From: a virus | Reading direction: 5' to 3' (one strand) | Length of the DNA stretch: 30,310 nt | IMG/VR virus record: IMGVR_UViG_3300045967_000031 | Location: 1 to 30,310 of that record | In this document: in pieces, positions 2,831 to 16,274 of the stretch | How positions within the stretch are numbered: position 1 is the first letter of the stretch | Layout of the letters: each line of letters opens with the position of its first letter | Program-made: the position numbers and the translations under genes | Notes under the pieces: model-generated | The model's input: the letters and a program-made list of their open reading frames with translations, nothing else | Told to the model about the DNA's origin: nothing | Database searches by the model: none

Positions 2831-4330
2831 GTGCCACTGATCACGCGGTCGCGGATCGTTCGGTATCTGCCGAAGCGACGCTTCGTCACGTCGAAGTTGA
2901 CGAATCTGATCCTGCAGTCTGTCGACGGGACGCTGACGACCGTCGGTGCACTCTCGAAGCAGATCGGGAAGATCACGTCGGCGACGCTGACGACCGCCGG
3001 CGCGCTGACGAAACAGACCGCCCGAGCACTGACTGCGACGCTGACGACGGCAGGCGCCCTCACGAAGCAGACGGCGCGCGCGCTCGAGGCGACGCTGACC
3101 TCGGCCGGCGCCATCATCAAACAGACACAGAAGGTCCTCGTCGGGACGCTCTCGAGCTCCGGGACGCTGATCGGCCTCTGTCTGAAGGCGCTCGGCGGCA
3201 CACTGACGACTGCGGGCGATCTGGTCAAGCAGACCGCCAGGGCGCTCGACGCGACGCTGACGTCGAGCGGTGCGCTCGCGGCGATCAAGATCGCCCTGAA
3301 GTCGCTCGACGCGACGGTGACGACGGCCGGCGCACTCCTGACGCAGACACAACGGGCGCTGACGGCGACGCTGACGACGGCCGGCACGCTCGCCAAGTCG
3401 ACGATCACGCTGCTCGAGGCGACGCTGACGACATCCGGCGCCCTGACCACGATTAAAGCCGCGCTGAAGTCGCTCGAGGCGACCGTCACGACCGCCGGTG
3501 CGCTCGCCAAGCAGGCCCACAAAGCGCTCGCGGGCACGCTGACGACGTCCGGAACAGTAACCCCCCTGCTTCAGAAAACGCTCGCGGCGACGCTCTCAAC
3601 GGCCGGGACGCTGCTGAAGCAGACCAGCCGGGAGCTGCTGGCGACGCTCTCGACGGCCGGCGCCCTGACCGCGGCCAAGATCGCGCTCCGGTCGCTCGAG
3701 GGCACCCTGAGCACGGCCGGCGCACTGACGACACAGACCGCCCGGTCGCTCACGGCGACCCTCTCGAGCTCCGGCGCACTCGTGACGTCGACGGCGAAGG
3801 CGCTCACAGCGACCCTCTCGAGCTCAGGCACGGTCACGGCGATCAAGACGGCGCTCCGATCATTCGACGGGACGCTGGCCACCGCCGGCGACCTCTCGAC
3901 GTCGACGGCGAAGACATTCGTCGCCTCGCTCAGCACGGTCGGCGCCCTCACGAAGAGCACGGCGAAGTCGCTGGCGGCGACGCTGACGACGGCCGGCACG
4001 CTGACGATCGTCCGGGCGAAGGATTTCGTCGCGACGCTCAGCTGCTCCGGCACGCTGTCCCGACACGTTGCCAGGGCACTGTCTGGCGAAATAACCCCCC
4101 TCTCTACCCTAAATAAACAATCGCTGACGTCGACGGCCGGGACGCTCGCGATCACGGCCGTGCTGACGGCGGTACTCTTCGCGCCGCCGCCGGAAGGATT
4201 CGTCCGTCAGGCCAGGACGAAGGCGCCGAAACTGTCGACGGTCTCGACATCCGCGCCGACGATCCGACCGAGCTCAACGTCGGAGCCCACACTCCGCCCG
4301 ACGCAGACGAAGAAACCGAGGATCATCTGA
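2831..4330 (+). CDS. Tandem-repeat fibre-like protein, 499 aa
   Basis: After a basic N-terminus (residues 1-32) the protein consists of 21 head-to-tail repeats (residues about 33-418), each based on ATLTTAGALTKQTARAL. Seventeen units are 18 residues long and four (units 7, 10, 14 and 17) are 20 residues long, with an AIKIALKSL-type second half. The T-L-T-T-A-G core is almost invariant and the second half is more helical. The C-terminus (about 440-499) is Pro/Thr/Lys-rich and probably disordered. Regular short units of this kind usually build an elongated solenoid or a trimeric shaft, so a phage fibre or spike is the best guess. GTG 2831 is the start; the stop overlaps the next ATG by one base. 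No enzymatic motif is present. Confidence 0.7.
   Translation: MPLITRSRIVRYLPKRRFVTSKLTNLILQSVDGTLTTVGALSKQIGKITSATLTTAGALTKQTARALTATLTTAGALTKQTARALEATLTSAGAIIKQTQKVLVGTLSSSGTLIGLCLKALGGTLTTAGDLVKQTARALDATLTSSGALAAIKIALKSLDATVTTAGALLTQTQRALTATLTTAGTLAKSTITLLEATLTTSGALTTIKAALKSLEATVTTAGALAKQAHKALAGTLTTSGTVTPLLQKTLAATLSTAGTLLKQTSRELLATLSTAGALTAAKIALRSLEGTLSTAGALTTQTARSLTATLSSSGALVTSTAKALTATLSSSGTVTAIKTALRSFDGTLATAGDLSTSTAKTFVASLSTVGALTKSTAKSLAATLTTAGTLTIVRAKDFVATLSCSGTLSRHVARALSGEITPLSTLNKQSLTSTAGTLAITAVLTAVLFAPPPEGFVRQARTKAPKLSTVSTSAPTIRPSSTSEPTLRPTQTKKPRII
2927..4084 (+). repeat. 21 coding tandem repeats of 54 or 60 bp
   Basis: The units follow one another without spacers: 17 of 54 bp and 4 of 60 bp, summing exactly to 1158 bp. 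Conservation is strongest at the bases for A/G-T-L-T/S-T/S-A/S-G. Codons differ between copies, so the repeats are old or under diversifying drift rather than freshly duplicated. Such arrays can expand or contract by recombination. Confidence 0.9.
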
Positions 4331-13342: not shown

Positions 13343-13687
13343 ATGGCGATCGTGTCACTCGAAACCGCGATGGCGCATCTGCACCTGAACCTCGACGGGG
13401 ACGGCTCGCCGAATCCCTACGAGTCGGACGTGCAGTTGAAGCTCCACCAGGCGACGGCGATCGTCCTCATGCACATCAAACGGCATGAGTATGCCGATTG
13501 GAGCGAGGACACGGATCCGGCGACGGATCCGGAATACGCGCTCGCGTCCGCGGCGATCTTGAAGGTGCTCGGGAACCTGTGGAAGTTCCGCGGCGACGAT
13601 GCGCAGACGCCTGGCGCCGTCGAAGGTCCGCTGACGCCTGACATCGTGCTCCTGCTGTCCGGAATGCGGGATCCGACGATCGCATGA
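13343..13687 (+). CDS. Head-tail connector protein (gp6-like), 114 aa
   Basis: The sequence MAIVSLETAMAHLHLNLDGD then DVQLKLHQATAIVLMHIKRH matches the 'vtLeeak-hLrid-----D--l--li--A---ie-yl' pattern of HK97 gp6 / SPP1 gp15-type head-tail connectors. A second helix pair ASAAILKVLGNLW and a C-terminal LLLSGMRDPTIA complete the small helical fold. It should form the ring under the portal. It starts immediately after the collagen-like gene's stop and overlaps the next gene by 4 bases. The next head genes of this module are 6 kb downstream, after the glycosylation cassette. Confidence 0.75.
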   Translation: MAIVSLETAMAHLHLNLDGDGSPNPYESDVQLKLHQATAIVLMHIKRHEYADWSEDTDPATDPEYALASAAILKVLGNLWKFRGDDAQTPGAVEGPLTPDIVLLLSGMRDPTIA

Positions 13688-14313
13688 AGGCGCCCATCGT
13701 TCCTCGAGCGGCGCGCGTCGAGCGAGACTGGCCGGGATCGACGGTCGTGTGCATCGGCAGCGGTCCAAGCCTGATGCAGGCCGACGTCGACGCCGTCCGC
13801 GGCCGCGCGAAGGTGATCGCGGTCAATGACGCGTACCGTCTCGCGCCGTGGGCAGACGCGCTCTATGCGTGCGACTCGAAGTGGTGGAGGTGGCACGACG
13901 GCGCGCAGGCCTTCGCCGGCGAAAAGTGGGCGATGCAGAGGCCGTCGGCACGGTGGCCGGGCGTCAAGATCCTGCGGAACACCGGCGCGACCGGCCTCGA
14001 GACGAATCCGACCGGCCTCCGGACGGGGCGGAACAGCGGCTACCAGGCGATCAATCTGGCCGTGCACAAAGGGGCGCGGCGGATCATCCTGCTCGGCTAC
14101 GACATGAGCGGCGGCCGGCAGCACTTCTTCGGCGAGCATCCGGATCGCACTGGGGCGCCGTTTGCGTCCTGCCTGCGCGCGTTCGCGACGCTCGTCGAGC
14201 CATTGCAGGCGCGCGGGATCGAGATCGTCAACTGCACCCGGAAGACCGCGCTCGTCTGTTTCCCGTTGCTGCCGCTCGAGGAAGCGCTCCGCGTCGAGGT
14301 CGCGGCCGCGTGA
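13684..14313 (+). CDS. MptE-like / phage 'GSGPSL' Rossmann protein, 209 aa
   Basis: The protein has VVCIGSGPSL (about 21-30) followed by VIAVNDAYRLAPWADALYACDSKWW (about 46-70), NSGYQAINLAVHKGARRIILLGYDM (about 118-142) and a C-terminal EIVNCTRKTALVCFPLLPLEEAL. This is the signature of a phage protein group related to the 6-hydroxymethylpterin pyrophosphokinase MptE-like / DUF115 family, Rossmann-like proteins that often occur beside glycosyltransferases. The substrate is unknown. It starts the cassette, overlaps the gp6-like gene (ATGA) and the radical SAM gene (GTGA). A sugar- or nucleotide-handling role is inferred from family and context. Confidence 0.7.
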   Translation: MKAPIVPRAARVERDWPGSTVVCIGSGPSLMQADVDAVRGRAKVIAVNDAYRLAPWADALYACDSKWWRWHDGAQAFAGEKWAMQRPSARWPGVKILRNTGATGLETNPTGLRTGRNSGYQAINLAVHKGARRIILLGYDMSGGRQHFFGEHPDRTGAPFASCLRAFATLVEPLQARGIEIVNCTRKTALVCFPLLPLEEALRVEVAAA

Positions 14314-16274
14314 GGTTCATCACGCCGTCGAAGGTGTTCTCGCATCTCGACCGGATGGCGGCCTGGCAGCACGGCCAGAAGGCGGCGCCGGTGACCGTCG
14401 AGTGGGATCTCTCGAACAGGTGCGTACTTGGGTGTCAAGCGTGTTTCCCCCCGGGAACACTCGTCGAGACTGAGGCGAGTGGCCGCATTCCGATCGAAGA
14501 CGTTCGCCGCGGTGACCGAGTGTTGGCGTATGACGAGAAACTGAAATCGCTCGCATGGGCCTTAGTCATTGGGACGCACGAGAAACCATACGTCGGAGCC
14601 CTACACGAAATTGAGTCCGGAGGGCTGCGTGTCGCTGCGACAAGTGAACATCCGTTCTTCACTCGTCGAGGGTGGATCACCGCAGCCGAGTTAAAATTAG
14701 AAGACGAGATCCTCCGTGAAAGCAATGTGCGCCTGTGGGTGCGGCCAAGAAGTGAAGACGCGCGGCGCGAAGCTGTGTCGCGGCCACTTCACCGCGGAAC
14801 TCAGGCAGTTGTGGAGCGAGATCAGGCGACGCAACAACCCGATGAAGAATCCAGAGATTGCAGCGAAGAGCGCCGCAGCGAAACGCGGAAGGAAAAACCA
14901 GGCGCTGTCGGAAACACGGCGACGCATGTTCGCGGACGGCACGTTGACATCTCCCGTGATGACCGAAGACTTCAAGCGTCGCGCGTCCGATCGAATGAAG
15001 CGTCAGAATCCGATGCACGATCCAGCGACGAGGGCGAAGGTGTCAGCGACGCGCCTGGAGCTTATTCAGAACTATGCCGAACCGACAATCGCTCACTATC
15101 AGAAGCACGGATCGGCGTGCCTGGTCGTCATGCTTCCGTCGAGGTCAGCAAAGAGGACGCCGGCTCTTGCTTCAGCGATGCGGACGGAAGTCCAGAAGTT
15201 CGTCCGCTCGTCGAAGAGCGCCATCTGGTATTTCGACGCATTGAGTCAATCCGTTCACGTTCTGCCCTCTCTCTCGTCTATAACCTCGAAACCAGCCTAG
15301 GGACATACGTCGCTGAAGGCGTCGTCGTCCACAACTGTCACTTCGCCCATACCCATACGCGCGGGCCCTGGGTCATGCGCGATCGCCGTCTCCCGATGGC
15401 GTTCGAGGACGTCGGCGACTACGCGGATACGACGCTCGTCCGTCGCGCGCTCGAGCAGATGGCCGCGGCCGGCGTCAGGGGCGTCGTGTGGACCGGCGGC
15501 GGCGAGCCGACCACACATAGCCAGTGGCCGGAGATCGTGCAATACGCGGCGAGTCTGGGACTCGAGCAAGGCATGTACACGCTCGGCGGTCTCTTGCGTC
15601 CGGAGTCGGCGCGCACACTCGCCGAGGCGGCGACCTGGGTCGTCGTGTCACTCGACTGTGCCGATCCGGTCACCTATCACCACGAGAAAGGCGTCCCGAC
15701 GGATCGCTTCTGGCGAGCGGTCGACGGGATCCGGTGGCTCGCCGAGCCGAAGCTGACGACGGTCGGCGTGTCGTTCCTGCTGCACGCGGGCAACTGGCGC
15801 AAGGCCGAGACGATGGTCTATCTGGCGCGGCAGCTTGGCGCGACGTATACGACGCTCCGGCCGACGATCGAGACCTCCCCCGACGCGCCGGCGACGTGCA
15901 CCGGCGACCGGTCATGGATCGCCGAGGCCTTCGAGACGCTCGTCGCGATCTCCAAAGAACCAGACGTCGAGTGCGACGTCGAGCGGTTCATGGAATATCT
16001 GGACTGGAACGGCCGGACGTATTCGACCTGCTACGGGGTGCGATTCAACGCGACGATCACACCGGACGGGCGCGTGTGGCTCTGTCCGCAACGTCGAGGC
16101 ATTCCGGATTCGTTGCTCGGCGATCTCCGGACGGAGTCGTTCGCCGACATCTGGGCGCGGCATCCCGGGCAGCGGACCGACCTGTCGGACTGTCGCGTGA
16201 TGTGTCGACTGCACCTGATGAATCAGCAGTTGTCGCAGGTCTACGCGCCGCGCGCACACGAGGCCTTCGTATGA
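14310..16274 (+). CDS. Radical SAM enzyme with SPASM/twitch-like C-terminus, interrupted by an intein
   Basis: The precursor has 654 residues and the spliced protein would have 356. The cluster motif CVLGCQAC is split: C38 and C42 are in the N-extein, and the third Cys is residue +1 after the intein (codon 15336-15338). Splicing yields CX3CX2C for the SAM-binding [4Fe-4S] cluster. Downstream, GVVWTGGGEPTTH is the radical SAM 'GGEP' motif. The C-terminus has a CX12GX4C (codons from 16029) and a late CRVMC, with GDLRTESFADIW, typical of SPASM or twitch domains that hold an auxiliary cluster. The substrate is unknown; neighbours are glycosyltransferases and a methyltransferase. GTG 14310 overlaps the previous stop (GTGA). 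Frame extension upstream of this is a shadow. Confidence 0.85.
   Translation: MRFITPSKVFSHLDRMAAWQHGQKAAPVTVEWDLSNRCVLGCQACFPPGTLVETEASGRIPIEDVRRGDRVLAYDEKLKSLAWALVIGTHEKPYVGALHEIESGGLRVAATSEHPFFTRRGWITAAELKLEDEILRESNVRLWVRPRSEDARREAVSRPLHRGTQAVVERDQATQQPDEESRDCSEERRSETRKEKPGAVGNTATHVRGRHVDISRDDRRLQASRVRSNEASESDARSSDEGEGVSDAPGAYSELCRTDNRSLSEARIGVPGRHASVEVSKEDAGSCFSDADGSPEVRPLVEERHLVFRRIESIRSRSALSLVYNLETSLGTYVAEGVVVHNCHFAHTHTRGPWVMRDRRLPMAFEDVGDYADTTLVRRALEQMAAAGVRGVVWTGGGEPTTHSQWPEIVQYAASLGLEQGMYTLGGLLRPESARTLAEAATWVVVSLDCADPVTYHHEKGVPTDRFWRAVDGIRWLAEPKLTTVGVSFLLHAGNWRKAETMVYLARQLGATYTTLRPTIETSPDAPATCTGDRSWIAEAFETLVAISKEPDVECDVERFMEYLDWNGRTYSTCYGVRFNATITPDGRVWLCPQRRGIPDSLLGDLRTESFADIWARHPGQRTDLSDCRVMCRLHLMNQQLSQVYAPRAHEAFV
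14442..15335 (+). other. Intein (298 aa) in the radical SAM gene
   Basis: The intein starts with Cys in CFPPGTLVETEASGRIPIED and GDRVLAYDE (block A), and has ATSEHPFFTRRGW (block B, TxxH). It ends with VYNLETSLGTYVAEGVVVHN followed by Cys (blocks F and G), so the terminal His-Asn and the +1 Cys needed for splicing are all present. The N-terminal splicing part spans about 91 residues and the C-terminal part about 45. Between them lie about 160 Arg/Ser/Glu-rich residues with no recognisable domain in this frame. That middle is exactly where a second frame encodes a NUMOD3-type protein. G+C is lower than in the flanking exteins. Confidence 0.88.
14716..15300 (+). CDS. Out-of-frame NUMOD3 homing-endonuclease-like ORF nested in the intein, 194 aa
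   Basis: This frame is +1 relative to the intein. The N-terminus CACGCGQEV then CRGHF looks like the small Cys/His knuckle that opens many phage homing endonucleases. Two NUMOD3 motifs follow: NNPMKNPEIAAKSAAAKRGR (about 41-60) and QNPMHDPATRAKVSATR (about 96-112), the modular DNA-binding helices of HNH and GIY-YIG homing enzymes. I see no HNH or GIY-YIG catalytic core; the last 60-70 residues lack motifs and overlap the intein C-terminal blocks in the other frame. It may be a remnant, an accessory DNA-binding protein, or a divergent nuclease. GTG 14716 is the first start; ATG 14725 is an alternative. Confidence 0.7.
   Translation: MKAMCACGCGQEVKTRGAKLCRGHFTAELRQLWSEIRRRNNPMKNPEIAAKSAAAKRGRKNQALSETRRRMFADGTLTSPVMTEDFKRRASDRMKRQNPMHDPATRAKVSATRLELIQNYAEPTIAHYQKHGSACLVVMLPSRSAKRTPALASAMRTEVQKFVRSSKSAIWYFDALSQSVHVLPSLSSITSKPA

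Follow-up and report, generated by a model that had tools for sequence, protein, structure and literature searches.

Can one stretch of phage DNA encode protein splicing in one reading frame and a homing endonuclease in another? Inteins are taught as one-frame elements, in which the two splicing halves carry an in-frame endonuclease or none. The window analysed here is the whole of a 30,310-nucleotide (30.3-kb) IMG/VR phage contig, with terminase, major head, portal and tape-measure genes. It contains an intein for which a preliminary description, made from the letters alone, proposed a different layout: an independent endonuclease gene would lie out of frame within the intein, and the middle of the splicing frame would be only the shadow of that gene. 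I put at roughly three chances in four the reading that the window element is a cis-splicing intein of a two-frame class, and that its nested nuclease is now probably a relic.

The intein, its host gene and its empty site

The intein and its surroundings comprise the following features:

14310–16274, plus strand: host radical SAM/SPASM gene with in-frame intein; GTG start, 654-aa precursor.
14442–15335, plus strand: intein of 298 aa, from Cys1 to the last Asn before C+1 (15336); by Pfam Intein_splicing, block motifs and the empty site.
14415–14441, plus strand: putative co-conversion tract, by comparison with the intein-less L010 allele.

The host gene product matches Pfam Radical_SAM (E 8.1e-12) and SPASM (E 4.4e-6), and its 356-aa spliced form is what the intein-less relatives L010–L022 encode. 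Upstream of the host gene, at 13684–14313 and beside the phage head genes, is a gene matching a PHROG named alpha-2,3-sialyltransferase (E 2.9e-47). The G+C content is about 58% within the intein, against about 69% in the flanks.

The intein frame matches Pfam Intein_splicing (E 3.7e-11), and direct reading recovers a complete set of block motifs, CFPPGTLV, TSEH (TSEHP), VYNLE and VVHN/C (here and below, a slash marks an intein boundary or insertion point). All hallmarks of a class 1 cis-splicing intein are present, namely Cys1, the TxxH of block B, the C-terminal HN and a nucleophile at +1; by these motifs the element is a canonical cis-splicing intein, splicing itself being predicted. The insertion point lies before the third Cys of the CX3CX2C motif (CVLGCQA/C). 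As had been described, the intein frame is uninterrupted throughout, and its Arg/Ser/Glu/Asp-rich middle gave no domain match. A single open frame spans 13848–16274; the host gene is not broken into two ORFs, which upholds the distinction drawn at the outset from split inteins with a free-standing endonuclease. Because a second IMG/VR contig (3300045947_000067, L009) carries an identical intein, and the two contigs align over 4,990 bp with 3 mismatches and 0 gaps, a sequencing indel or assembly error is an unlikely source of the two-frame layout. The sequencing frameshift that the preliminary description had named as a hazard was thus not seen, nor was any relative found with this nuclease in frame with this intein.

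The suggested search for intein-lacking relatives led to the exact empty site, in L010. Intein-less alleles are L010–L012 and L014–L022, the first three being identical contigs with about 97.5% DNA identity to the window. Over the tract at 14415–14441, 9 of 27 bp differ from L010, affecting 8 of 9 codons and silent except in the last; beyond it there are 0 differences in the next 240 bp upstream and 0 in the first 37 bp downstream of the insertion (binomial P 2e-9 for this clustering). The simplest reading is that the 27-bp tract is donor flank, co-converted during recent homing. Judged from this tract and from the empty sites in near-identical contigs, the window intein is a recent arrival. 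The L009 contig differs from the window at 14412, three bases past the tract, which may mark a different tract end, a single base being insufficient to tell.

A pattern search for other inteins at CX3CX2/C did not find the donor of the window intein. What it returned were inteins next to the cluster cysteines of QueE-like radical SAM proteins (L096:9094, L099:8362, reverse strand of the locus); one has its endonuclease in frame, the other is a mini-intein. The radical SAM cluster-cysteine motif is a repeated intein target.

The nested frame of the window

The second frame, P0002, lies wholly inside the intein and has these parts:

14703–14718, plus strand: intein codons GAC GAG ATC (DEI) and then GTG, the GTG 13 nt after the GAC.
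14716–15300, plus strand: nested ORF P0002, 194 aa, GTG start, +1 relative to the intein; read directly, and by profile and L116 alignment.
14728–14787, plus strand: Cys/His knuckle of P0002, CACGCG-x11-CRGH; read directly, aligning with CECGCG of L116.
14824–14886, plus strand: NUMOD3 motif 1 of P0002, NNPMKNPEIAAKS (RRNNPMKNPEIAAKSAAAKRG); profile match.
14983–15051, plus strand: NUMOD3 motif 2 of P0002, RMKRQNPMHDPATRAKVS (ASDRMKRQNPMHDPATRAKVSAT); profile match.
15048–15075, plus strand: probable junction of the catalytic-core deletion; by alignment with L116.
15055–15249, plus strand: remnant of the nuclease C-terminal part, LELIQNYAEPTIAHYQKHGSACLVV...; by Smith-Waterman alignment with L116.

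The out-of-frame ORF was thus correctly described, its start codon, Cys/His knuckle and two NUMOD3 motifs all being present inside the intein. A profile built from related nested nucleases gave two matches, in the window's +1 frame only (together 38 bits, against scores below 0 in each of the other two window frames), one covering the knuckle and first NUMOD3 motif and one the second NUMOD3 motif. The catalytic half of the profile, positions 111–232, had no match in P0002. Single-sequence searches of P0002 against Pfam, PHROGs and NCBIfam gave nothing significant, the NUMOD3 motifs being too weak for Pfam alone, and in particular no HNH (checked to E up to 1) or GIY-YIG match. No match to P0002 was found in phage records by tblastn; a genome-collection scan returned two weak NUMOD3 matches only, and a plasmid search with the frame-joined intein returned Hint domains only.

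Since high G+C eases the opening of shadow frames, the preliminary description had asked whether chance could account for the two frames. With the P0002 amino acids fixed, the intein frame is open with a probability of 0.0046; with those of the intein fixed, the +1 frame is open with a probability of 0.049. Openness is weak evidence at this locus alone, and it is homology, through L116 and the profile, that decides.

The nearest relatives of the window intein that were found, L116/L117, are in a different radical SAM gene, with the intein at the equivalent position (CNHKCNW/C). Their intein frame is open throughout, and their +1 frame encodes an intact 265-aa nuclease with a CECGCG knuckle, two NUMOD3 motifs and a core with E, PDF and IEL residues. 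Conservation of one frame only, which had been named as grounds for doubt, was therefore not seen in them. No Pfam match was obtained for the L116 nuclease, and no clear Shine-Dalgarno site was seen in L116. The C-terminal part of P0002 aligns to this nuclease with a Smith-Waterman score of 60, against 24.5 +/- 4.1 for shuffles (0/5000 as high). The same part compared with the catalytic domains of L028 and L047 scored no better than shuffles, and with L004 marginally (2% of shuffles).

Between the second NUMOD3 motif and the C-terminal part, about 60–65 codons are missing relative to L116, and neither the profile nor the L116 alignment gave a counterpart of the E/D/H/D catalytic domain in the window copy. 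The window copy appears to have lost the catalytic core of a Vsr/EDxHD-like nuclease with both frames staying open and, because both are still open, the deletion would have been a multiple of three bases. P0002 is probably a relic, and presumably inactive as a homing enzyme.

Two-frame inteins in other phages

The same two-frame layout occurs in about 27 other phage inteins and in one on a bacterial plasmid, with an apparently intact nuclease in most. An alignment search seeded by two chance finds (L036 and L037) led to a class set of 26 further loci, near-copies removed, together with plasmid L081, whose nuclease looks decayed. The 26 loci come from phages of Vibrio, Corynebacterium and Pseudomonas and from IMG/VR contigs, and include the isolated phages Corynebacterium phi673, Vibrio CP-T1, 104E43.1 and 1.088.O, and Pseudomonas MR14. 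Each has a complete +1-frame NUMOD3-DUF559 nuclease nested in the intein. Insertion is mostly in DEAD/H-type helicases at DE/CH, and in some cases in SNF2-like genes. Among the annotated isolates examined (Vibrio CP-T1 gp10, Corynebacterium phi673 gp43), only the helicase is annotated there. The plasmid locus (L081:2396-5517, Rhodovastum atsumiense) lies in a SNF2-related gene; its NUMOD3 region is mostly lost and its EVDG motif altered, and the intein frame is open. The SPbeta BnrdE intein, considered as an earlier example, proved to be an ordinary in-frame LAGLIDADG-type intein with its other frames closed.

All class members share one pattern of frames: nuclease in +1, intein frame open, third frame closed. 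Given the nuclease residues, the third frame has a probability of 0 of being open in every member except one that is decayed; part of the reason is that Met-Lys in the NUMOD3 motif, encoded by ATG AAR, puts a TGA there. As the third frame cannot open, it is always the +1 frame that is used. For the intein frame, the probability of being open given the nuclease residues ranges from 1e-2 to 3e-7 per locus, with log10 P summing to -120 over the 26 loci, which are related and hence not independent. A nuclease of the same family outside any intein, in L059, has 18 stops in the frame corresponding to the intein frame.

The class nuclease is of the NUMOD3 plus Vsr/EDxHD-like (DUF559) type. DUF559 was detected in two nested members (E 6.5e-13 and 1.2e-9), and the intact nested nucleases share invariant E..D..H..D columns. 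Their PDB relatives, by sequence and by Foldseek, are 3hrl and 3r3p (I-Bth0305I). The predicted structure of the L047 nuclease (pLDDT 90.7) has I-Bth0305I as its best PDB match (probability 1.00, E about 0.01), the sequence similarity reaching only E 0.012. Of the domains for which a profile search had been proposed, NUMOD3 was confirmed in the window gene, whereas HNH and GIY-YIG were not found, and the class nuclease is neither. Two further arrangements were encountered. In L028:2997-4100, at a radical-SAM-like CX2-3C site, the Hint-N frame ends in a TAA overlapping the nuclease ATG (ATATGGTAA), and the NUMOD3-EDxHD nuclease continues in frame into Hint-C, which makes this a split or frameshifted version of the two-frame theme. 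L030–L033, from nt 3001, are LAGLIDADG inteins with an in-frame CACGCGQ Zn-knuckle insertion inside Hint-N.

Which of the two frames is selected was addressed by a codon-level comparison of the kind that had been proposed. In the closest Vibrio pair, L079/L080, differences at intein codon positions 1/2/3 number 12/5/56 before the nested gene, 32/3/0 inside it and 14/4/46 after it, or 26/9/102 summed outside. The corresponding counts are 9/1/32, 20/4/3 and 5/2/18 for L077/L078, and 0/0/5, 4/2/1 and 4/2/28 for L056/L057. Comparing positions 1 and 3 inside and outside the nested gene, Fisher tests give P of 5e-18 (L079/L080), 5e-8 (L077/L078) and 0.003 (L056/L057). In more distant pairs, identity in the nuclease frame (mean 0.42) exceeds that in the shadow frame (mean 0.23) in 325/325 cases. 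Since the substitution phase switches exactly inside the nested gene, these comparisons identify the nuclease frame as the one under purifying selection in the class and the linker as its shadow, as first supposed. The phase-switch evidence is drawn from three pairs of relatives; the only other known carrier of the window copy has an identical intein.

In many members the nested start follows the first base of GAC/GAT GAG GTN, the intein's DE(V) codons, by 13 or 16 nt, which places a GAGG as putative Shine-Dalgarno site in L055, L056, L061, L075, L076, L077, L079, L088 and L089. No clear site was seen in about a third of the class, and some members start elsewhere. In the window (GACGAGATCCTCC-GTG), the spacing is that of L056, L077 and L079, with a weaker site, GAGA against GAGG. 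The ribosome-binding site of the nuclease is thus probably often the intein's own conserved DEV codons, a putative assignment.

Explanations and known systems

In the favoured explanation, the intein frame would supply the splicing halves, joined by a linker rich in Arg, Ser, Glu and Asp that is tolerated and has no function of its own, while the linker DNA read in +1 would encode, as a gene in its own right, a homing endonuclease of the NUMOD3 plus Vsr/EDxHD-like (DUF559) type. This gene would, in intact members, begin at its own start codon just after Hint-N and end before the last splicing block. The nuclease, if translated as predicted, would presumably cut intein-less alleles, and repair would copy the whole intein. 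In the window copy, where the core deletion would have spanned a multiple of three bases and left both frames open, splicing should be intact and homing probably lost. The original idea of one segment serving splicing and homing in two frames therefore holds in kind, across the class, and is weakened for the window itself, whose nuclease is probably a relic with its core deleted.

An origin by frameshift decay, in which a compensated pair of indels displaced a nuclease that had shared the intein's frame, is unlikely. Such a history would agree with the existence of in-frame NUMOD3-EDxHD inteins (L004, L067–L069), with the decay that the missing catalytic core attests, and with the Hint tree, which does not place the window intein inside the nested helicase clade. 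However, the closest relative found has an intact +1 nuclease at the same site, the start codon keeps its recurring 13-nt distance from the DE motif, and the in-frame nucleases form a separate branch (96/98). Under the two-frame reading, the radical SAM lineage may be a second, separate origin of the layout.

A remaining activity of the shortened P0002, such as regulation through DNA binding or cleavage from a different active site, is improbable. P0002 has no equivalent of the segment in which L116 and L004 carry their catalytic residues, and AlphaFold from the single sequence gave no confident fold (pLDDT 47); what speaks for a working product is that both frames are still open, that the DNA-binding NUMOD3 parts are retained and that the intein arrived recently, judged from the flanking tract.

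I consider it more doubtful still that ribosomes slip from Hint-N into the nuclease by programmed frameshifting and so make a fusion with no fresh start. The members with no clear Shine-Dalgarno site, and the nested frames that are often open upstream of the start, would fit this, but the start codon stands at a recurring position with a GAGG/GGAG/AGGA-like site upstream in 16/26 members, and the same nuclease family occurs free-standing. The latter case (L059:2986-5275) is directly upstream of, and overlaps, a helicase gene whose VIDECHRS site is uninterrupted, plausibly an ancestor-like state.

Finally, a G+C-driven shadow frame that was never a gene can be set aside as very improbable: the window is G+C-rich and has many long shadow ORFs, and the +1 frame has a probability of 0.049 of being open given the intein residues, but the knuckle and NUMOD3 motifs match the profile only in +1, both ends of P0002 align to the L116 nuclease, and G+C in the nested region peaks at the third codon position of the nuclease (0.71 vs 0.56 and 0.53).

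Beyond the window, I think it somewhat better than an even bet that two-frame inteins are widespread, unrecognised phage mobile elements, with a ribosome-binding site in the DEV codons, and that free-standing nucleases like that of L059 entered mini-inteins, possibly repeatedly (helicase, radical SAM). The importance lies in this class rather than in the window copy, most likely a relic. Many large inteins annotated as having no endonuclease may carry one in another frame, their disordered linkers being coding shadows. The class would explain how one element yields two independently expressed products and how the nuclease can be lost with no harm to splicing. It also offers a natural system for overlapping-gene evolution, in which the flanking splicing halves serve as internal control for the direction of selection.

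Several known systems share part of this layout. In fractured genes, which Dassa et al. reportedly described in 2009, a split intein is accompanied by a free-standing endonuclease of the EDxHD type. There too the endonuclease gene is separate from the splicing frame and lies between intein halves; in contrast to their broken host gene and trans splicing, the host frame here is unbroken and overlaps the nuclease gene. The in-frame EDxHD/Vsr-like inteins have the same order of parts (Hint-N, Zn knuckle, NUMOD3, EDxHD-like catalytic domain, Hint-C) in one continuous frame, whereas the nuclease of the two-frame class is in +1 and ends before Hint-C. I-Bth0305I, which shares the catalytic fold with the modelled nested nuclease, differs in being intron-borne: this EDxHD homing endonuclease (PDB 3r3p; Taylor et al., 2011, as cited in PMC9403480) comes from a group I intron. 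A literature search for an out-of-frame endonuclease within an intein returned only the work on the ShiLan element and the announcement of a phage that carries it; older intein papers may mention an overlap. The nearest published precedent, and a non-intein one, is the ShiLan element (2025): an insertion in a phage methylase, judged by its authors to be neither intein nor intron, holds an HNH gene out of frame. Both elements have a homing-type nuclease gene out of frame inside a host gene whose frame stays open throughout, a patchy distribution and an uncertain translation start. Unlike the ShiLan element, with its HNH nuclease and no splicing domain, the window element combines a splicing domain with a nuclease of the NUMOD3 and EDxHD-like type.
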